The translations under genes were made by a program, and so were the position numbers. 64,000 nt of DNA from Rhodothermus bifroesti. Its GTDB lineage: Bacteria; Bacteroidota; Rhodothermia; Rhodothermales; Rhodothermaceae. Shown piece by piece: positions 28,929 through 62,207 of the stretch (its first letter is position 1; each line of letters begins with the position of its first letter). The notes below the pieces were generated by a model, which saw only the letters and a list, made by a program, of their open reading frames with translations, made no database searches and was not told the DNA's origin. The stretch lies in the NCBI RefSeq assembly GCF_017908595.1, contig NZ_JAGKTL010000001.1:789001-853000 (forward strand). The letters run 5' to 3'.

Positions 28929-31900
28929 TTAGTTGTCTGTGGAAGTAGCCAGCAGCATTTCAGAGGGCTCTTGAGTCCTGCGCTGCCACCGATAGCGCTC
29001 CACGAGCAAATACAAGGCTGGTAGTACGACCAAGGTTAAAGCGGCCGCAGTGAATAGTCCACCAACCATTGGCGCTGCGATGCGCTTCATTACTTCGGCG
29101 CCGGTTTCAGTGCCGAACATGATGGGCAGCAGGCCAATGAGCGTGGTCGATACGGTCATCAGCAGAGGCCGCAAGCGCAGCAATGCGCCTTCTTCGATCG
29201 CTGCGCGAAGTTGTTCAATGGTGCTAAGCTGTCCTGCCTGACGATAGCGACGTACGGCTTCGTCCAGAAACGTGAGCATCACCACGCCGGTCTCCACGGC
29301 CAAGCCTACCACACCGATGTATCCTACCGCCACCGCGACGCTCATGTCGAAGGCCAGCGCCACCATCAGCCATACCGCACCAATGGCTGCCAAGGGCAGC
29401 GTAGAAAGCAACATCAGGGGTTCCCGGAGGTTACGAAAGTGTAGCATCAAAATTAGAAAGACTAAACCAAGGGTCAATGGCCCTAAGATTTGCAGGCGGC
29501 GATTGGCCCGCTCCATGTACTCAAATTGGCCGCTCCAAACCAAAGCATAGCCTGGAGGGAGCGAAAGTTCACGTGCCAGGAGCTGTTGGGCCTGTTGCAC
29601 GTAGGTGCCAATGTCTACGCCTGGGGCCAGGTCGATATACACCCATACGGTTGGGCGGGCATTTTCGCTGCGGATCATCGATGGGCCTTCGGTGAGCTCA
29701 AAGTGCGCGAGCTGGCCCAAGGGTACCTGAGCCCCGGAAGGGGTTGGCACCAGCACCTGGCGTAAAGCCGGTAAGTTGTCGCGCAGGTCTTGGGGATAGC
29801 GCACGAGCACGGGATAGCGTTCCAGCCCTTCAATGGTGGTGGTTACGTGGAGCCCACCAATAGCAGCTTGGGCAACATCGAGCACCTCACCTATGGTCAG
29901 CCCATAGCGAGCAGCTTCGGCGCGGTTGACTACAATGTCCAAATAACTGCCGCCAGTAGCACGCTCGGCATAGACCGATCGCGTGCCGGGCATGTTGCGC
30001 AGCAGGCTTTCCAGCGTAGTGCCTAATCGATCTAGCGTAGCTAGCTCGGGCCCCATCAGCTTGATCCCCAGGGGTGTGCGCATGCCGGTAGCCAGCATGT
30101 CGGTGCGGTTCTTGATCGGCATGGTCCAGGCGTTCGTAACGCCAGGAATCTGCAGTGCTCGGTTCATTTCTTCGATCAAGCGGTCAAGCGTCATGCCTGG
30201 CCGCCATTCCCGAGGATCCTTAAGCTGAATAATGGTCTCAAACATCGAGAGGGGTGCCGGATCGGTGGCGGTTTCGGCGCGGCCCGCTTTGCCTGTTACA
30301 GAAGCTACCTCAGGAAAGCTTTTGATAATACGGTTGCTCAACTGCAGCAGTTCTTTGGCTTTTTGGGGCGAAAGGCCTGGGAGCGTAGTGGGCATGTAAA
30401 GCAGGTCACCTTCGTTGAGCGGAGGCATGAATTCCGACCCAATCTGAGGAAACGGAATCGCTACCCGGCCCCAAAGCAAGCGTTGAACTGGCAGTAGTGT
30501 TAGCCCAAGCAGTAGCAGGCTACCTACGATAACCTGCCAGGGATGGCGAAGTGCGTAGCGGATGACCGGTTGGTACATTTGCATCAGCAGGCGAGCTAGG
30601 GGATTTTGCGCTGCAGGGCGGATTTTCCCTCGCACAAAAACCACCATCAGGGCAGGCACCAGGGTCACTGCGAGCAGCGAGGCTGCTGCCATGGCAAACG
30701 TTTTGGTTAGGGCCAAGGGTCGGAACAGGCGACCTTCGATATTTTGCAAGGCAAAAACGGGCAAGAAGCTCAGGGTCACCACCAGCAGTGAAAAAAACAA
30801 GCTGGGGCCAGCTTCTCGGGCGGCCTCTAGCACAGCCTGCATATGCTCGCTGTGACGCAGCGGGCGATTGTGCTGCGCGCGCAATCGCTCCAGGTGGCGG
30901 TGCGCATTTTCTACCATCACCACCGAGGCATCGACCATGACCCCGATAGCCACGGCAATACCACCCAGGCTCATAATGTTTGCGTTAATGTCGAGGAGAT
31001 ACATAATCAGCAGTGAGATCAGCACCCCCACAGGCACCGCGACTAAGGCCACAAAAGCGCTGCGCACATGCAGCAGAAAGACCAGTACAATAAGCGCTAC
31101 GACAGCCAGCTCTTGCCAGAGCTTGATGGTAGCGGTGTGCACGGCCTCGCGAATAAGCCGTGAGCGGTCGTAGTCTACAACCACCTTCACCCCTTCCGGT
31201 AGGCTGGCCTGAAGCTCGGCCAAGCGGGCTTTTACGCGTTCGATAACACGCAATGCATTTTCTCCATAGCGCATAACCACAATGCCGCTTACCACCTCGC
31301 CTTCGCCATCACGCTCGGAGATGCCCTGGCGTAACTCTGGACCTACTTGCAGACGGGCCACATCACCTAGGGTAATGACAGTGCCGTTTTGCGCTTTAAG
31401 CGGGGTTTGCCGTAGATCGTCGATCCCTTGCAGATAGCCTGGAATGCGCACCAGGAATTCTCGCTCACCTAATTCTAAAAGTCGGGCACCGACTTCCTGG
31501 TTAGCGTGCGCAATGGCCTGGCGCACCTGATCGATGGAGATGCCATAGGCCAGTAGCTTTTGTGGATCGACAACGACCTGATACTGTTTGAGAAAGCCTC
31601 CTACGGTGGCTACTTCTGAGACGCCTTCAATGGACTGGAGTTCGTATTTGAGAAAGAAATCCTGCAGGGCTCGTAGGTCAGCCAAGTCATGCCGGCCCGT
31701 GGTATCAATTAGGCTGTACTGAAAAACCCAACCGACGCCAGTGGCATCCGGGCCCAAGCTGACTTGAGCCCCTTCAGGTAAGGTTACTTGATTTAAGTAT
31801 TCCAGTACACGGCTTCGCGCCCAGTACAGGTCGGTGCCATCTTCGAAAATCACATAAACAAACGAAGTCCCAAACATCGAATAGCCCCGGACTGTACGGG

Positions 31901-32135
31901 CCCCGGGTACCGCCAGCATGGCGGTAGCCAAGGGATAAGTGATCTGCGCCTCGACAATTTGGGGCGCTTGACCCGGGTACTCCGTACGGATGATCACTTG
32001 GGCATCCGATAGATCTGGGATAGCGTCGATCGGCGTGTTCAGTGTAGCCCACAGCCCCAAAGCGCTGATAAGGAGCGTAAGCGTTAAAATGAGCAAGCGA
32101 TTGTGGGCGCTCCAGGTAATAAGGCGTTCGATCAT
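28929..32135 (-). CDS. cusA: CusA-type heavy-metal RND efflux permease
   Basis: A 1068-residue inner-membrane proton/metal antiporter of the HME-RND family, which forms a trimer with CusB and CusC. Expected features: MIERLITWSAHNRLL at the N-terminus, TPIDAIPDLSDAQVIIRT, the membrane proton-relay region GGIAVAIGVMVDASVVMVENAHR, and the metal-pathway segment NAWTMPIKNRTDMLATG characteristic of Cu/Ag exporters. The second repeat of transmembrane helices contains VGYIGVVGLAVETGVVML. Its similarity to CusA rather than CzcA, together with the CueR-like regulator, points to Cu(I)/Ag(I). It follows cusB after 15 bases. Confidence 0.93.
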   Translation of the reverse strand: MIERLITWSAHNRLLILTLTLLISALGLWATLNTPIDAIPDLSDAQVIIRTEYPGQAPQIVEAQITYPLATAMLAVPGARTVRGYSMFGTSFVYVIFEDGTDLYWARSRVLEYLNQVTLPEGAQVSLGPDATGVGWVFQYSLIDTTGRHDLADLRALQDFFLKYELQSIEGVSEVATVGGFLKQYQVVVDPQKLLAYGISIDQVRQAIAHANQEVGARLLELGEREFLVRIPGYLQGIDDLRQTPLKAQNGTVITLGDVARLQVGPELRQGISERDGEGEVVSGIVVMRYGENALRVIERVKARLAELQASLPEGVKVVVDYDRSRLIREAVHTATIKLWQELAVVALIVLVFLLHVRSAFVALVAVPVGVLISLLIMYLLDINANIMSLGGIAVAIGVMVDASVVMVENAHRHLERLRAQHNRPLRHSEHMQAVLEAAREAGPSLFFSLLVVTLSFLPVFALQNIEGRLFRPLALTKTFAMAAASLLAVTLVPALMVVFVRGKIRPAAQNPLARLLMQMYQPVIRYALRHPWQVIVGSLLLLGLTLLPVQRLLWGRVAIPFPQIGSEFMPPLNEGDLLYMPTTLPGLSPQKAKELLQLSNRIIKSFPEVASVTGKAGRAETATDPAPLSMFETIIQLKDPREWRPGMTLDRLIEEMNRALQIPGVTNAWTMPIKNRTDMLATGMRTPLGIKLMGPELATLDRLGTTLESLLRNMPGTRSVYAERATGGSYLDIVVNRAEAARYGLTIGEVLDVAQAAIGGLHVTTTIEGLERYPVLVRYPQDLRDNLPALRQVLVPTPSGAQVPLGQLAHFELTEGPSMIRSENARPTVWVYIDLAPGVDIGTYVQQAQQLLARELSLPPGYALVWSGQFEYMERANRRLQILGPLTLGLVFLILMLHFRNLREPLMLLSTLPLAAIGAVWLMVALAFDMSVAVAVGYIGVVGLAVETGVVMLTFLDEAVRRYRQAGQLSTIEQLRAAIEEGALLRLRPLLMTVSTTLIGLLPIMFGTETGAEVMKRIAAPMVGGLFTAAALTLVVLPALYLLVERYRWQRRTQEPSEMLLATSTDN

Positions 32136-32150: not shown

Positions 32151-33869
32151 TTAGTTAGCATGTACCAGCAACGTCCCTTTGAGCATGTTCATCCCGCAGG
32201 TGAACAGGTAGGCCCCCGCGCGTGCTGGTGTGAAGGTGAGCGTTACGGGTTGGTGTAGGGGCAAATCTACCGGACCAATGCCCAGCTCGGGAAACTGAAT
32301 GGCCGTGGCACAGGTCTGGTCTGTGGTGCGCGTAACGGTTAGGCGAACCGGCCGTCCAGACGGAACTTCGATGCGTGAAGGCACAAAGCCGTTGGCATCA
32401 ATCCGTAAGGAAACAACCGTTGTATCCTGATTGGCGCTGTGCCCCTGGTGTTCAGGCATGCGCGGCAAAGGTTGGGGTTGTGTTTTAGGTGCTGGGCTCG
32501 TGCCGTGCTCTTGGTGTTCGGGCGCGCGAGGCGAAGGCTGGAGCTGCGTCTCAGGAGCTGGGGTCGCGCCATGTTGATGGCCGCCCATGAACGCAGCTAA
32601 GGCTTGCTTTAGCCGTGCTTCGGAGTCAATCAAAAATTGCGCGCGTGCCACAATTTGTTCGCCACCCTGCAAGCCTTCTAAGATTTGCACATAGCCTTGA
32701 GCCTCTAAGCCAGGCTGCACGCGCACGGGTCGAAAGCGCCCTTCTCCCAGCGCCAAAATCACCCAGGCCTCTGCGCCATAACGCACGAGCGCCTCGGTGG
32801 GAATGCGGGGACGCGGCGGCGTAGGCTGCCCCTGGAGGGTTGCGAGGGCATACATGCCCGGTTTTAGGCGCAGGCCAGGATTGGGAACGACAATGCGTGC
32901 ACGGGCCGTGCGTGTCTCCGGATTAAGCGTGTCGTAGATGTAATCCACCCGGCCTTGGAGCCGAACGGTGGGGTCATAGGGCAGCGTAATTTCGGCGGTA
33001 ATGCCTGGCTTGATCCAACTCAGATCGTGTTCGTAGACGTCCACCTGCAGCCAGAGCGTTGAGAGATCGGCCAGTACGAAGAGCGTTTGTCCCGGCTGCA
33101 CTTGTTGGCCTTCAACCACCTCTTTGCGTAGTACGGTACCTGAGGCAGGGGCGTAAAGGGTGAGCGTTTTACGTGCTTGGCCAGAGGTTTCAAGCTGGCG
33201 GATTTGCTCTGCAGTGATGTCCCAAAACAGCAACCGCCGACGCGCTGCTTCAAGCAAGCGTTGGGCATCGGTTTGGGCCGGTGTACCCGCCAGCTGCTGC
33301 ACATTGCGCAGCGCCAGTAGATATTCCTCTTGGGTAGAGACCAGTGCTGGACTGTAGAGCTCCAGCAATGGGTCGCCTTTTCGGACGCGGGCGCCTTCAT
33401 AGTCGACGTAGAGGCGTTCCACCCAGCCCTCGATTTTAGGCGATACAGCCACAAGCTGCTGCTCGTTGACCTCCAGGCGTGCTGTGGTCCGAACCGTAGG
33501 AGCCAAGGGAGCTACTTCAACCGTCGTCAACCGCACGCCAAAATTCTGCAACATCGCAGGATCAATGCGGACAGTGCCTTCTGCCTCCTGATTGAGGGCT
33601 TCGTGAACAGAGACAGGCACGAGGTCCATGCCACAGTCGGGGGCTTTCCCTGGGGCATCTTGGACAATCCAGGGATGCATGGGGTCTTGATAGACGATGC
33701 CGTCGCCATCAAGGTCGAAAGCAGCCAGCCCTTGGGGCGACGGGGCCTGGGCAGTGGTAGAGGTATCTGGGGTTGTAGAAGTAGCAGGAGTGCGCAAGAG
33801 CGCATATGTGGCATAGGCAATAAGCAGCAGGCCTAGCACGCCTGCGATAATCCATAAGGGCAAGCGCAT
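32151..33869 (-). CDS. cusB: CusB-type periplasmic adaptor with heavy-metal-binding and cupredoxin-like domains
   Basis: A 572-residue membrane-fusion protein linking CusA to CusC. After an N-terminal membrane anchor (LWIIAGVLGLLLIAYATYAL) come: a heavy-metal-binding domain (YQDPMHPWIVQDAPGKAPD, then CGMDLVPV), the lipoyl/hairpin adaptor core (about 120-420; SPKIEGWVERLYVDYEG, LYAPASGTVLRKEVVEGQ), and a His/Pro-rich linker made of two 22-residue repeats (434-477). Last is a cupredoxin-like domain (about 485-572) ending TCGMNMLKGTLLV. The usual CusB ends after the core or a CusF-like domain, so this C-terminal fusion is unusual. The final domain matches the free lipoprotein encoded at the end of the operon, suggesting metal hand-over between them. 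Confidence 0.93.
   Translation of the reverse strand: MRLPLWIIAGVLGLLLIAYATYALLRTPATSTTPDTSTTAQAPSPQGLAAFDLDGDGIVYQDPMHPWIVQDAPGKAPDCGMDLVPVSVHEALNQEAEGTVRIDPAMLQNFGVRLTTVEVAPLAPTVRTTARLEVNEQQLVAVSPKIEGWVERLYVDYEGARVRKGDPLLELYSPALVSTQEEYLLALRNVQQLAGTPAQTDAQRLLEAARRRLLFWDITAEQIRQLETSGQARKTLTLYAPASGTVLRKEVVEGQQVQPGQTLFVLADLSTLWLQVDVYEHDLSWIKPGITAEITLPYDPTVRLQGRVDYIYDTLNPETRTARARIVVPNPGLRLKPGMYALATLQGQPTPPRPRIPTEALVRYGAEAWVILALGEGRFRPVRVQPGLEAQGYVQILEGLQGGEQIVARAQFLIDSEARLKQALAAFMGGHQHGATPAPETQLQPSPRAPEHQEHGTSPAPKTQPQPLPRMPEHQGHSANQDTTVVSLRIDANGFVPSRIEVPSGRPVRLTVTRTTDQTCATAIQFPELGIGPVDLPLHQPVTLTFTPARAGAYLFTCGMNMLKGTLLVHAN
32439..32570 (-). repeat. Two-copy 66-bp repeat encoding the His/Pro linker of CusB
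   Basis: Encodes residues 434-455 and 456-477 as two imperfect 22-residue copies (GATPAPETQLQPSPRAP-EHQEH and GTSPAPKTQPQPLPRMP-EHQGH). Each ends in a short His-containing motif. The linker is probably flexible and may bind metal through the His residues. Confidence 0.9.
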
Positions 33870-33890: not shown

Positions 33891-35141
33891 TTAGGGTTGA
33901 GGCAGCAGGCCCAGCACCATGTCGGCCTCCGCGGCCATGACCAGGAGTCGGGTGAAGGTTTCTAAGCGCTGGAGCTCCAGCTCAAAAAGCGCACGTTCGG
34001 CATCGAGTAACTCGAGATACGAAGCCTGTCCTGTCGTGTAGGCACTGAGCAGGGATTCGCGGGTAGTGCGGCCTGCGGGCAGGAGCGTCTGCTCCAGCAA
34101 CGTCAGGCTTGCCTGGGCAGCAGCAAACTGGCTTTGCAGTGCTGCAAAACGGCTTGTGAGCTGATTGCGCAGGTCAGTATACTGCGCTGCCCAGCGTTGT
34201 GCGTTTAGCTGCGTTTCCTCGATATAGGCAGCGCGACGCGGTCGCTGCACCGGCAGCACCACGCCCAAGCGGATGCCCAGGCGTGGACCCAAGTCTTGCA
34301 AGGGAGTGACTGGCGTATTCATCATGTCCATCAGGCCCACACCCAAGACCAGGTCGGGCCAGTATTCTCGACGGGCCCGCCGGAGCTCCGTTCGGGCTTG
34401 CTGCTCGCGGAATGCCAGCGCCAAGGCTTCTGGATGGCGGCGCAACGCTTCCTCGATGGCTGCCGTAGGCAAGGCGGTAGGCAGTGCCGGCGCTTCCAGC
34501 GCTACGGTGTCGGGCCAGTCGATGCGTCCAGTAAGCTGGCGCAGGTTAGCAAACTGCGCTTGCCAGGCTTCCTTTAGCGCCAACAGTTGTTGCGTGAGGC
34601 TGTGCCGCTCGAGTTGCAGGCGCAACACAGCGGCTTGCGACTCTTGGCCGACTTCGTAGCGCACCGTTGCTGCTTCAGCAAAAGCAGCAAGGCGCTCCCA
34701 AAAGGCCTCAATCAAGCGCCGCGTTTCTGCCAAACGATAGAGCTCGTAATACGTGGTGCGTAAGGCGTAGACGAGTTTGAGTGCTTGCGAAGCGGCTTCA
34801 TAAGTCATAGCCTCAGCTTCCAAGCGAGCTGCTTCGCTTTCTAGTGCCTTTTTTCCTGGGAAAGGCACCTCTTGCATAAGCATGAACGACGCAGGCACTG
34901 CCCCGTCTAAACCGCCTAGCGCTAGTGGACGATAGCCTATCTCCAGGGCAGGATCTGGCCACGCTCGGGCTTGCACCGAACGGGTACGTTGGGCTTGGGC
35001 AGCCAAGCGGGAAGCCTGCAGGGCCGGATTGGCCTCGAGCGCTTCCTGAATCAGTGCCTGTAGCGATATTGTATCGGGCCTGAGTTGAGCCGTAGCCGAC
35101 GGCACAAGGAGTAACCAAAGGCACAGGTAACGTGCAACCAT
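33891..35141 (-). CDS. cusC: CusC/TolC-family outer-membrane efflux protein
   Basis: The ATG at 35141 is chosen because aggag (35152-35148 on this strand) sits six bases upstream; the ATG at 35147 would touch it. About 416 residues: a signal peptide (VARYLCLWLLLVPSATAQ), then two outer-membrane-efflux repeats with long helices (SLQALIQEALEANPALQA, AAIEEALRRHPEALALA). The segment WPDPALEIGYRPLALGG is typical of heavy-metal TolC members. It forms the exit duct of the CusCBA pump. The ribosome-binding site lies in one arm of a 15-bp inverted repeat whose other arm holds the stop codon of the preceding gene. Expression may therefore depend on translation of that gene. Confidence 0.92.
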   Translation of the reverse strand: MVARYLCLWLLLVPSATAQLRPDTISLQALIQEALEANPALQASRLAAQAQRTRSVQARAWPDPALEIGYRPLALGGLDGAVPASFMLMQEVPFPGKKALESEAARLEAEAMTYEAASQALKLVYALRTTYYELYRLAETRRLIEAFWERLAAFAEAATVRYEVGQESQAAVLRLQLERHSLTQQLLALKEAWQAQFANLRQLTGRIDWPDTVALEAPALPTALPTAAIEEALRRHPEALALAFREQQARTELRRARREYWPDLVLGVGLMDMMNTPVTPLQDLGPRLGIRLGVVLPVQRPRRAAYIEETQLNAQRWAAQYTDLRNQLTSRFAALQSQFAAAQASLTLLEQTLLPAGRTTRESLLSAYTTGQASYLELLDAERALFELELQRLETFTRLLVMAAEADMVLGLLPQP

Positions 35142-35147
35142 ATACAT

Positions 35148-35235
35148 CTCCTGATTTGATGGTAAAGAAGGCAAAACAAGCCCTAAACCGGTTTGGCGCA
35201 CTACGGCGCCGCACACCAGCCCATCAAATCAGGAG
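35148..35235 (-). promoter_or_regulatory. 15-bp inverted repeat sequestering the cusC ribosome-binding site
   Basis: Arms 35148-35162 (ctcctgatttgatgg on the + strand) and 35221-35235 (ccatcaaatcaggag) are perfectly complementary, with a 58-base loop that contains its own ggcgc/gcgcc hairpin. In the mRNA the 3' arm contains the cusC Shine-Dalgarno aggag and the 5' arm contains the TGA stop of the upstream ORF (35224-35226). Ribosomes ending there would open the stem. This is direct sequence evidence for structure; the coupling role is inference. Confidence 0.75.
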
Positions 35236-35637
35236 CACCGAAAGCACCAAGTGTCGACGTGCTCGACCCGATCTTCGGCTTGGGAAAGCCGTCCGTTGTA
35301 GAAGAGGTGGAGTGAAGAAAACAAGAGGCCCCCACTCCAAACCAAACCCTACCAGCGCTAAGCTAAGGCCAAAGGGTCGCAGTTCGGGAGCTGAGCTAGG
35401 AGGCGTGGCCGGACGCACCTGGCAGCAGGCCATCCAGGCTACGCACGAAGCCGAGGGTGCGGCCTCGGGCTCTGGCATGGGGTGTTCTGCACAGGCCGAA
35501 GTTGGAGTGGCCTGTGCCGCAGGTCCGGGAAAGCTCAGGCAGGCTTGCAGCAACGAACCTACCTGGCCCACAGCCATCCAGCTTAAAAAGCCGATGGCCA
35601 GTAGGCGTATGATCCTAGGTTGTTGCTGCAGACGCAT
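35224..35637 (-). CDS. Cys-containing small exported or membrane protein of the copper operon, unknown
   Basis: A 137-residue protein starting MRLQQQPRIIRLLAIGFLSW, a signal or anchor segment. A middle region with five Cys, one His and several Met residues follows (SACAEHPMPEPEA, ASCVAWMACCQ), then a hydrophobic stretch (FGLSLALVGFGLEWGPLVFF) and a basic tail. It resembles in size and layout the small unclassified proteins often found inside metal-efflux operons, but I do not recognise a named family. The Cys/Met-rich centre is suited to Cu(I) or Ag(I). Its stop codon lies in the inverted repeat that masks the cusC ribosome-binding site, so it may act partly as a coupling leader. Confidence 0.6.
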   Translation of the reverse strand: MRLQQQPRIIRLLAIGFLSWMAVGQVGSLLQACLSFPGPAAQATPTSACAEHPMPEPEAAPSASCVAWMACCQVRPATPPSSAPELRPFGLSLALVGFGLEWGPLVFFTPPLLQRTAFPSRRSGRARRHLVLSVLLI

Positions 35638-35649
35638 GTCCGTACACCG

Positions 35650-35856
35650 TTATTCGACAACCCCATAGCCTTCCGCTTCAATGGCCGCCTTGATGCGTTT
35701 CCGGTCAATTTGGGCTGGATCATAGGCGACCACTGCGCGGCCAATTTCGACTACATGCACCTCAACCTCAGGAAGCTGCTTTAAGGCACGTTCGACCGCC
35801 TGCACGCAGTGCTGGCAGCTCATGCCTTCAATGCGAAGCGTCTCCTGCGTTTTCAT
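35650..35856 (-). CDS. copZ: CopZ-like copper chaperone (HMA domain)
   Basis: A 68-residue heavy-metal-associated domain protein with the ferredoxin-like fold. The Cu(I)-binding loop is GMSCQHCVQAVERAL, followed by the usual strand and helix and a C-terminal EAEGYGVVE. It would carry Cu(I) to the N-terminal HMA domain of the CopA ATPase encoded just upstream, whose loop [13 protein letters not shown] is similar. The start overlaps the 3' end of the small membrane-peptide gene by 29 bases. A gene of this size between copA and the cus genes shows that cytoplasmic and periplasmic copper export are co-regulated. Confidence 0.92.
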   Translation of the reverse strand: MKTQETLRIEGMSCQHCVQAVERALKQLPEVEVHVVEIGRAVVAYDPAQIDRKRIKAAIEAEGYGVVE

Positions 35857-35965
35857 GTTTCTTTACGGTTGGTTTAGCAGAAAGTTCATAGAGCCAAAAG
35901 TACCACACGACCCAAACCATGGCCAACAGGCCTAAAAGCGTTACAATCCAAGCTGTGGTGTCCAT
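35828..35965 (-). CDS. 45-aa single-pass membrane peptide between copA and copZ
   Basis: An ORF too short for usual gene callers: MDTTAWIVTLLGLLAMVWVV, then WYFWLYELSAKPTVKKHENA, then GDASH and TGA. It has one aromatic, strongly hydrophobic helix (residues about 5-26) and a basic/His tail. Its ATG lies three bases after the copA TAA, and it overlaps copZ by 29 bases, the spacing expected of a translated operon member. It may be a small subunit or stabiliser of CopA, as small peptides are for other P-type ATPases. No known family was recognised. The evidence is the reading frame, composition and spacing only. Confidence 0.6.
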   Translation of the reverse strand: MDTTAWIVTLLGLLAMVWVVWYFWLYELSAKPTVKKHENAGDASH

Positions 35966-35968
35966 GGC

Positions 35969-38437
35969 TTAAGGTAATTGTTCCACTTGAAAGCGCCGCA
36001 GGCGCAAACTGTTGGTGACGACCGAGACGCTTGAAAGCGCCATGGCTGCCGAAGCGATCACCGGACTGAGCAGTAGGCCGGTGAAGGGGTAAAGCACACC
36101 TGCAGCAATGGGAATTCCCAGCACGTTGTAGATGAACGCAAAAAACAGGTTTTGCTTGATGGTGCGAAGCGTTCGGGCTGAGAGCCGAAAAACATCAACC
36201 ACCACCTTCAAGTCTGGGCGCATGAGGGCTACGTCGCCTGCTTCGATAGCCACATCCGTGCCTGAGCCCATAGCAATCCCAACGTCGGCCTGGGCCAAGG
36301 CGGGTGCATCGTTGATGCCGTCGCCTACCATGGCTACCACATGTCCTGCTGCTTGAAAGGCTGCAATGGCGGCGGCTTTGTCTTGTGGCAACACGTTGGC
36401 GTGCACTTCATCGATGCCCAATTGCCGGGCTATCGCTGCGGCAGCCGTTTCGCTGTCGCCGGTAAGCATGGCCACGCGCAACCCCATGCGATGCAGGAGG
36501 CGAATAGCCGGCTCGGCCGAAGGGCGCAGCGTATCCGATAAGGCCAGCAAGCCTGCAGGCCTTCCTTCGAGCGCCATGGCTACTACGGTGTAGCCTTCGG
36601 CGGCTAGGGCAGCTGCAACCTCTTGGGGTACCGGCTGGCCGCGTTCGGCCAAAAAAGCTGGGCGACCGATTTCGACCCGCTGGCCATCAACGCGGGCTTC
36701 AACGCCTAAGCCAGCGGTAGCCCGAAAGTCGGCAACCGGTGGAAGCGTGAAGCCGCGCGTTTCGGCTGCTTGCACAATAGCGCGAGCTAGCGGATGCTCT
36801 GAGCGCTGCTCGGCAGCCGCGGCCAATATGAGGAGCCGATCCGGATCGTGGCCGTTAAGCGGCACAACGCGCTCCAGGCGCGGTCGGCCTTCAGTGAGCG
36901 TGCCAGTTTTGTCGAAGACTACCAGGTCGACTTGGCGCAGCCGCTCTAAGGCATCACCGCCTTTTACAAGCACACCAAGCTGAGCTGCGCGACCAGTGGC
37001 GACCAAGATGGCTGTAGGCGTGGCTAAGCCCAGCGCACAGGGGCAGGCGATGATGAGTACCGAAACAAACGTGAGCAGCGCGTGCGTTAGGCGCGGCTCA
37101 GGCCCGAAGTCGAACCAGAGCACAAACGTGGCGATGGCGACCAAAAGTACCACTGGGACAAAGATCCCGGCTACACGGTCGGCTAAGCGCTGAATCGGAG
37201 CCTTGCGGGCCTGAGCTTCTTCAACAAGCCGGACAATCTGTTGGAGCACCGTGTCGCGTCCGATGCGGGTTACCCGTACCACTAGCGCGCCACTTTGGCT
37301 TACCGTGCCCCCAATAACAAAATCCCCAGGTTTTTTATCGACCGGAACCGATTCCCCCGTGATCATGCTTTCGTCGACGGCGGCGATGCCTTCTTCGACG
37401 ATGCCGTCTACCGGAATTTTTTCCCCTGGGCGTACCACGACGCGATCGCCCACGCGTACGGCTTCGATAGGAACCTCTTCTATGCGGCCGTTTCGCTCAA
37501 GGCGTGCGCGGGGCGGCTGCAGGTCAAGCAGTTTCTCAATGGCTGCACTGGTTTGAGCGCGCGCCCGGGCTTCCAGCGTGCGCCCAAGTAGAATAAGCGT
37601 CACAATAACCGCTGCGGCCTCGAAGTAAACGTCTGGTGCGCGGCCAGCAGCTTCAAAAAAGCCTGGAAAAACGGTGGCTACTGTACTGTACAAATAGGCA
37701 GCACCCACACCTAGGGCCACCAGTGTGTTCATATCTGCCGCGTGGTGGCGAAAAGCCCGCCAAGCACCGGTAAAGAATGGACGGCCAGCCCAGAAAACAA
37801 CGGGTGTTGTGAGTAAAAGCTGGACCCACAGAGAGCCCGGGAACTCCAGTGTGTCGTGCCCCATGGCAAGCACAACGACAGGAAGACTCAGGAGCGCAGC
37901 TGTCCAAAAGCGTCGGCGTACGTCTCGGTACAGCCGCTCTCGCTCGCGTCGGAGTGCCTCACGGTTGCTTGAACTGGTTAGGTGTTCAGGCGCGGCAAGC
38001 AGGCCGGCCGCCATAAGCTGCTGTTGCAGCAGGGTCGGGTCAGCGATCACGGGCACGTAGCGCAGCCGAACGGCAGGCGCACTGTCTTCGGTTACCACTT
38101 CCCAGGTGAGTACGCCATTGATGCGGCCAAAGAGCGCTGCCAGTTCGTCGGCTGAAGGCCTGCGCGTAAGCTTACACGTGAGCGTTTCGGTACGGACGCC
38201 GTAGCCTGCAGCTTCTACGGCTGTGATAAGCTGTTCCAGGTGCACGGCCTGGGGGTCGATCTGCACGGCGGCTTCGCCTGTAGCGTAGTTCACACTGGCT
38301 TCGCGCACGCCCGGCAGGCGCCGCAGGTGCCGTTCAATGCGCACCGCACAGGCGGCACACTCCATGCCCTCCACAGGCAGACGGAGCGCAAGCTCCGTTT
38401 CAGGAGTGGTGGTTTCCAATGTGGTCGGGCGCTCCAT
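35969..38437 (-). CDS. copA: Copper-exporting P1B-1 ATPase
   Basis: The ATG at 38437 ([18 protein letters not shown]) is preferred; longer frames run back into the regulator gene. About 822 residues: an N-terminal HMA domain ([15 protein letters not shown]), an HMA-like second region lacking the Cys pair, eight membrane helices with the metal site [16 protein letters not shown] in helix 7 (FIYNVLGIP) and [16 protein letters not shown] (MxxSS) in helix 8. It also has DKTGTLTEG and [10 protein letters not shown]. This is the complete Cu(I) signature set. It pumps cytoplasmic Cu(I)/Ag(I) to the periplasm for CusCBA to remove. It starts inside the last 38 bases of the merR-type gene. Confidence 0.95.
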
Positions 38438-38834
38438 GATCGTCGTGCAGAGCGTGCAAAATAGGACAGTGCTCGATCGGCGCCTGGCCATCGCAGCTGG
38501 CTACCAGGCGGCAGAGCGTATCGCGCATGCGCGCTAGGTCGCGAATTTTTGCTTCGATTTCAGCGATTTTGGCCAACGCGCGCTCACGTACCAAGCCGCT
38601 ATGGGCACCTGGCATTACTTCGAGCGCCAAAAGCTCTTCGATTTCGCGAAGCGAAAAACCCAGCTCCTGTGCCCGTTTAATAAAGCGCAAGCGGGCTATG
38701 TCGGTGGTGTTGTAAGTTCGATAGCCTGAGGCGTTGCGCTGCGGTGGAGGCAATAGCCCCCGCTGCTCATAGTAGCGAATCGTTTCAGCATGGACGCCGG
38801 CCGCTTCGGCCAACGCGCTGCGCGTCAGGAGCAT
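38400..38834 (-). CDS. cueR: CueR-like MerR-family metal regulator
   Basis: A 144-residue MerR activator: winged helix ([39 protein letters not shown]), a long dimerisation helix, and a metal loop with Cys108, Cys114 and Cys123 ([16 protein letters not shown]). At the start of the dimer helix it has Ser79 (GAHSGLV) where CueR has Ser77. Divalent-metal sensors have Cys there, so a monovalent Cu(I)/Ag(I) sensor is likely. The loop spacing (nine) is one longer than in CueR. A His-rich tail (HIGNHHS) ends the protein. It is the first gene of the copper operon and has a classic MerR palindrome 37 bases upstream. Confidence 0.88.
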
Positions 38835-61614: not shown

Positions 61615-62130
61615 ATGGCAAACGAACCCTGGCTGGAGGCTGACCAAACTGAAGGCGCACAAGCACGCCGCGCAGATCTCCTCAAAGGGTTACGCCAAGT
61701 GCAGTACTGGATCGATGAAGCGCTCGCCCAGGTGCCCGACGAAACTGCGCTCTGGTGGGAACCCGCAGCAGGTGTTCCTTCAATTGGAGCGCGCCTGCAG
61801 CATATTCTGGGTGCCAGTCGGCGACTGGCCGCCTATGCCTTAGCTGCCGATCCCGATCCCGAAAGCCTGGCCGCAGCCGCCCGATCGGATTGGACCCCTC
61901 AGATGCTGCCCAAAGCGAGCTTGGCGCAGGAAGTTCGCGACTTTTTTGCTGAATTGATCCACCGTCTTGAAGCACTGCCCGAGGAGGCAATGGACGAGCT
62001 GCGCCCGCTTGGCCGAAAACGACTGCCCGTACGGCGCTGGACGATCTTGCATCACCTTGTCGAGCATGCGGCCTATCATAGCGGCCAGCTTATCTTGCTC
62101 GTGCGCCTCTACACGCACCACGTTGGCTAA
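61615..62130 (+). CDS. DinB-like four-helix-bundle protein
   Basis: A 171-residue member of the DinB/YfiT superfamily. The metal ligands are three His: one in ARLQHILGASRRL and two in HLVEHAAYHSGQLILLV. The first helix (LLKGLRQVQYWIDEALAQV) and WWEPAAGVPSIGA are typical. Such proteins often are thiol-S-transferases or metal-dependent hydrolases acting with bacillithiol or glutathione, but the substrate here is not identifiable. It is the third gene of the helicase operon, with 6 bases before it and 77 after. Confidence 0.85.
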   Translation: MANEPWLEADQTEGAQARRADLLKGLRQVQYWIDEALAQVPDETALWWEPAAGVPSIGARLQHILGASRRLAAYALAADPDPESLAAAARSDWTPQMLPKASLAQEVRDFFAELIHRLEALPEEAMDELRPLGRKRLPVRRWTILHHLVEHAAYHSGQLILLVRLYTHHVG

Positions 62131-62207
62131 AAAAGGCCTTCTTGCTTGCAACTCTGCGGCTTAAAGTGCCGTAGGCTAGGCATCAAAGAACAGGCTTAGG
62201 GCCAAGC

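Follow-up and report, generated by a model that had tools for sequence, protein, structure and literature searches.

A hairpin between gene X and cusC as a probable translational-coupling element in a Rhodothermus copper operon

The copper cluster and its intergenic hairpin

The window, that is, the whole stretch of 64,000 nucleotides that was analysed, comes from a heat-loving Rhodothermus and contains on its minus strand a copper cluster formed by a MerR-type regulator, copA, a small ORF, copZ, a gene here called X, cusC, cusB and cusA. An inverted repeat joins the end of X with the start region of cusC. The genes and the parts of the hairpin are located as follows:

38400..38834, minus strand: MerR-family (CueR/MerR-like) regulator, head of the cluster
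35969..38491 (counted from the first ATG), minus strand: copA-like copper P-type ATPase
35828..35965, minus strand: 45-aa membrane-like ORF between copA and copZ, overlapping copZ and starting MDTTAWIVTLLGLLAMVWVVWYFWL
35650..35856, minus strand: copZ-like HMA copper chaperone
35224..35637, minus strand: gene X, a 137-aa Cys-containing protein with a hydrophobic N-terminal stretch and without Pfam family
35221..35235, minus strand: 5' arm, CTCCTGATTTGATGG, the last three codons and TGA of X plus 3 nt
35224..35226, minus strand: TGA stop codon of X, within the 5' arm
35163..35220, minus strand: 58-nt loop, with a second hairpin (GGCGC...GCGCC, outer GCTGGT/ACCGGT) and a small third hairpin
35148..35162, minus strand: 3' arm, CCATCAAATCAGGAG, containing the cusC AGGAG, with terminal CAGGAG
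35148..35152, minus strand: AGGAG Shine-Dalgarno (SD)-type motif, 6 nt before the cusC ATG (35139-35141)
33891..35141, minus strand: cusC, a 416-aa outer-membrane efflux protein of the OEP/TolC family
32151..33869, minus strand: cusB-like adaptor with a heavy-metal-binding domain and a C-terminal cupredoxin-like domain
28929..32135, minus strand: cusA/czcA-family RND pump

The order copZ-X-cusC is common to all seven genus members, namely the window and six relatives (L007 to L012) that were reached via cusC and used for comparison. The stop codon of X and the cusC ATG are separated by 82 nt, the longest gap in the copZ-X-cusC-cusB-cusA series, the other gaps being of 12 nt (copZ-X), 21 nt (cusC-cusB) and 15 nt (cusB-cusA). 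No promoter-like site was found in the X-cusC spacer by a sigma-70 scan, whose model may not fit this organism, nor was a terminator-like site found there, the sole match of the terminator scan being located inside cusC. Lying on the same strand in a conserved order, X and cusC would presumably share one transcript, together with the other genes of the cluster. Two further observations concern the neighbouring genes. Sequence similar to the 45-aa ORF occurs at the equivalent place, between copA and copZ, in the relatives, and the C-terminal domain of the CusB-like adaptor corresponds to Cupredoxin_1 of Pfam (residues 478-569), present besides the heavy-metal-binding domain.

Gene X, present in all seven genus members with a length of 130-165 codons, encodes an apparently exported protein for which, as for its relatives, no family exists in Pfam. 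Outside the genus, a search of 114 genomes of the order gave only two matches, both weak, partial and interrupted by a stop. The dN/dS values of X, 0.18-0.36 between most relatives, indicate purifying selection in most comparisons and agree with a real protein; the value for the close pair L009/L010, 0.67, derives from very few changes. The gene is fast-evolving and genus-restricted, and is always placed between copZ and cusC.

The arms of the inverted repeat (35148-35162 and 35221-35235) are complementary at 15 of 15 positions, with 58 nt between them. In minus-strand orientation the 5' arm reads CTC CTG ATT TGA TGG (mRNA CUC CUG AUU UGA UGG), and the 3' arm corresponds as mRNA to CCAUCAAAUCAGGAG. 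The first-pass annotation had described a perfect 15-bp repeat bearing the cusC AGGAG in one arm and the upstream TGA in the other, and the arm sequences confirmed both points. RNA folding, which it had proposed as a check, yielded a stable structure: the minimum free energy (MFE) of the 101-nt RNA was -46.8 kcal/mol versus -29.2 +/- 3.3 kcal/mol in dinucleotide shuffles (z = -5.3). Two in-frame ATGs follow the AGGAG (ATGTATATG), and since the first one abuts the motif, the second is the likely start of cusC.

Perfect repeats of at least 15 bp with a loop of 21-100 nt are represented by this single case in 464 kb, made up of the window and 400 kb from elsewhere in its genome, the latter containing none. 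The exact 15-mer has one occurrence in the genome, besides three matches with two mismatches, and its uniqueness led to the rejection of an origin from a mobile element or repeat family. An intrinsic terminator was also rejected, as no T-run follows the 15-bp stem. The Rfam covariance models gave no match for the element up to E = 5.

Modelled masking of the cusC start and relief by a terminating ribosome

Both the MFE structure and calculations of opening cost predicted that the cusC ribosome-binding site is sequestered by base pairing. The opening cost was obtained from the energy model at 65 C for a stretch comprising the ATG and the 13 nt that precede it, and a terminating ribosome was modelled as an idealised 30-nt block at the X stop codon. 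For the 150 control sequences, synonymous shuffling was applied to the last 20 codons and dinucleotide shuffling to the spacer, of which the 11 nt adjoining the ATG were left intact. Opening the site in the window costs 7.9 kcal/mol, a value reached by one of the 150 controls (3.9 +/- 1.3 kcal/mol). In an earlier control, in which the spacer alone was shuffled, the cost in the window was not exceptional (26 of 200 shuffles were as costly); that control was too weak because about 10 of the 15 pairs stayed in place.

The partner arm, with the last three codons and the TGA, lies under the terminating ribosome of X, and the 30-nt block at the stop relieved 5.1 of the 7.9 kcal/mol, while the relief in controls was 0.0 +/- 0.6 kcal/mol and none of the 150 reached 5.1. 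The first-pass annotation had claimed that translation of X to its end would free cusC and that the Cys-rich frame could sense metal or thiol stress. The first half of that claim, masking and opening by the terminating ribosome, stands as a computed result and the arrangement is kept in two related genomes; the Cys-based sensing is not supported, as detailed below. In 124 other same-strand neighbouring gene pairs from the 464 kb, relief attained a maximum of 4.2 kcal/mol (mean 0.12, sd 0.96). The X-cusC pair was outside this automatic survey, and its value of 5.1, modelled separately, is set beside it. An antisense ORF of 178 aa overlaps X and probably displaced it from the survey. Sizeable relief at an upstream stop was also computed for two other gene pairs of the sample, both without SD motif, at positions 62130-62207 of the window (plus strand; 3.3 kcal/mol) and G000:C1:96912-97009 (plus strand; 4.2 kcal/mol).

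How much the masking of AGGAG would matter depends on the use of such signals in this lineage. Within 400 kb, about 16% of the long ORFs have an SD core at the right distance, versus 6% at a control distance, and a survey of 2011 reported for R. marinus the absence of an SD logo and a changed last base of the anti-SD (PMC3155529). With SD signals in a minority of genes and no logo in R. marinus, the masked AGGAG may matter less than it would in E. coli. The motif is presumably used for cusC initiation, and masking of the start region would be expected to hinder initiation with or without SD pairing.

Conservation of the structure in the genus

A DNA search with the element in 40 related genomes gave a match in the window's own genome only, and the comparison was therefore made at the orthologous place in the six relatives. 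Identity of their cusC to that of the window is 63-66% (65-66% for L009 and L010). The cusC tree shows the window as a long branch beside two groups, the close pair L009 and L010, which we take to be R. marinus-type, and the four others.

The same helix between stop codon and SD motif is kept in both R. marinus-type relatives with a 4x4 internal loop, CUCCUG-AUCU-GAUGGCCC pairing with GGGCCAUC-UAUC-CAGGAG. Six plus five pairs are shared with the helix of the window and the four middle pairs are replaced by the internal loop; three new G-C pairs are gained inside, and others beyond the motif. The AGGAG and its spacing to the ATG are retained, only the second of the two ATGs being present, and the GGCGC/GCGCC stem of the loop occurs in these two genomes too. 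Calculated as for the window, opening costs 9.0 kcal/mol in L009 (0 of 150 controls) with a relief of 3.2 (2 of 150), and 8.8 kcal/mol in L010 (0 of 150) with a relief of 5.5 (0 of 150). L012 has a different and shorter helix, in which UGAGCCC pairs with GGGCUUA and so covers the GGG motif and the start of this relative (relief 3.7 kcal/mol, 4 of 150). In L007, L008 and L011 folding and opening-cost calculations revealed no stop/SD helix, which indicates that the helix is not essential to the operon. Some form of the arrangement thus occurs in four of the seven genus members, three of which share one and the same form. The spacers of L007, L008, L011 and L012 contain a distinct local hairpin shortly downstream of the X stop codon (for example, GGCTGCC...GGCAGCC in L007), similar in place but partly different in sequence.

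L009 and L010 agree at all 18 non-coding positions of the helix arms but differ at 14 of the 67 positions in the rest of the spacer (Fisher p = 0.034). When the window was compared with the R. marinus-type relatives, conservation of the spacer was higher at positions paired in the fold of the window than at unpaired positions (p = 0.006 and 0.036, in tests that are not independent); for the non-coding columns of the main helix alone, the excess of conservation was not significant (9/12 vs 29-30/58, p ~0.1). The consensus fold has 29 pairs, three of which carry changes on both sides, none of these within the main helix. The shared core pairs are invariant and display no covariation in the three sequences, two of which are close. 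The first-pass annotation had named arms that do not covary among the refuting outcomes, and this was found in part: the core does not change, and in the R. marinus-type genomes four pairs in the middle have been lost. The sequence comparison shows that the place and the predicted strength of the structure are kept, which is not a proof by covariation.

Translational coupling and alternative roles

The hairpin probably couples translation of cusC to that of X through RNA unfolding. In the transcript of the copper operon, the end of X including its UGA would pair with the cusC ribosome-binding site and hide it. A ribosome finishing X would cover the 5' arm, the helix would open, and a new ribosome could start cusC at the opened site, 82 nt downstream. 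Synthesis of cusC would then take place while X is translated and would be low when X is untranslated; from the modelling we infer that such coupling may operate in the cell.

Several known systems resemble this arrangement. In the unfolding type of coupling, as in E. coli rpmI-rplT, genes VII-IX of phage f1 and coat-lysis of phage MS2, sequence of the upstream gene likewise hides the downstream site and upstream translation opens it. In rpmI-rplT a ribosomal protein also binds the structure, a feature with no known counterpart here. The present case differs from these three systems in that the upstream stop codon lies at the centre of the 5' arm, and also in its genes, which code for an outer-membrane channel and for a Cys-containing protein that is apparently exported. 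Attenuation by erm and cat leader peptides shares the feature that the position of a ribosome on an upstream frame decides downstream masking; X differs from such short leaders in being a gene of 130-165 codons under purifying selection in most comparisons, with its Cys codons far from the arm. In most studies, re-initiation couples genes only weakly once the gap exceeds ~30-40 nt, although one study saw coupling over a longer range; unfolding is favoured where a gap allows a new ribosome to load, as in rpmI-rplT, whose gap of +52 nt is comparable with the +82 nt found here (PMC12548453). The +82 nt gap, together with the location of the 5' arm under the terminating ribosome, makes unfolding fit better than plain re-initiation.

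Other roles have to be weighed against coupling. Structured gaps between operon parts can set differing amounts of those parts. The X-cusC spacer, the longest gap from copZ to cusA, harbours a multi-branched structure of high stability, which could accordingly be an mRNA processing or stability element between copA-copZ-X and cusCBA. We consider this unlikely: such an element has no need of arms that cover a stop codon and a ribosome-binding site, yet that placement is kept in the R. marinus-type relatives and, in another form, in L012. It is slightly less likely still that the 15-bp repeat is a by-product without role, its arms fixed by Leu-Leu-Ile-stop coding on one side and by AGGAG on the other. 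The rarity of the repeat in 464 kb, the control with shuffled gene ends and spacers, and the retention of the helix with added pairs in diverged relatives all speak against chance, although coding and motif alone explain six of the pairs (CTCCTG/CAGGAG) and three relatives have no helix.

An RNA thermometer, in which heat would melt the helix and free cusC without a ribosome on X, is very improbable. The opening cost in the window is 14.5 kcal/mol at 37 C and declines, as that of any helix would, to 6.5 at 70 C, but close to the temperatures at which Rhodothermus grows, at 65-70 C, 6.5-9 kcal/mol are still needed in the window and in both R. marinus-type relatives.

As a mechanism, coupling by unfolding is an added example of a known control and introduces no new principle; a search of the accessible literature retrieved no paper on cusC coupling, or on RNA structure and translation in Rhodothermus. 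If real, it would represent coupling centred on a stop codon in a lineage with few SD signals, whose use is in doubt, and for that reason the hairpin would allow SD use by Rhodothermus ribosomes to be tested directly. Synthesis of the outer-membrane channel in step with the preceding protein, from one copper operon, would be explained as well.

The proposed response to metal or thiols is not supported by the positions of the Cys codons. X has 5-9 Cys residues, with five invariant positions (33, 49, 65, 71 and 72), and their codons are confined to the first two thirds of the gene. In the seven genomes the last of them lies 132-195 nt before the stop (195 nt in the window, 132-144 nt in the relatives), and in none are the Cys codons placed where a stalled ribosome would control the pairing. 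A ribosome held at the last Cys codon would leave the arm free to pair, so that cusC translation would be lowered rather than raised. Attenuation by ribosomes slowed at these codons, switching cusC through the hairpin, is hardly credible, despite the Cys content of X and its location in a copper operon, as the helix would stay closed and a MerR-type metal sensor already heads the cluster. A related reading is a long shot: were translation of X itself copper-dependent, its exported Cys-containing nascent chain being slowed, for instance, by copper or by the export machinery, the hairpin could act as a second, post-transcriptional copper switch on the amount of channel, below the MerR-type regulator. 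X also varies in length within the R. marinus-type pair; the gene of G001 (L009:880-1374) has an insertion of ~35 residues, absent from its close relative G004, that resembles a tandem duplication of neighbouring sequence.
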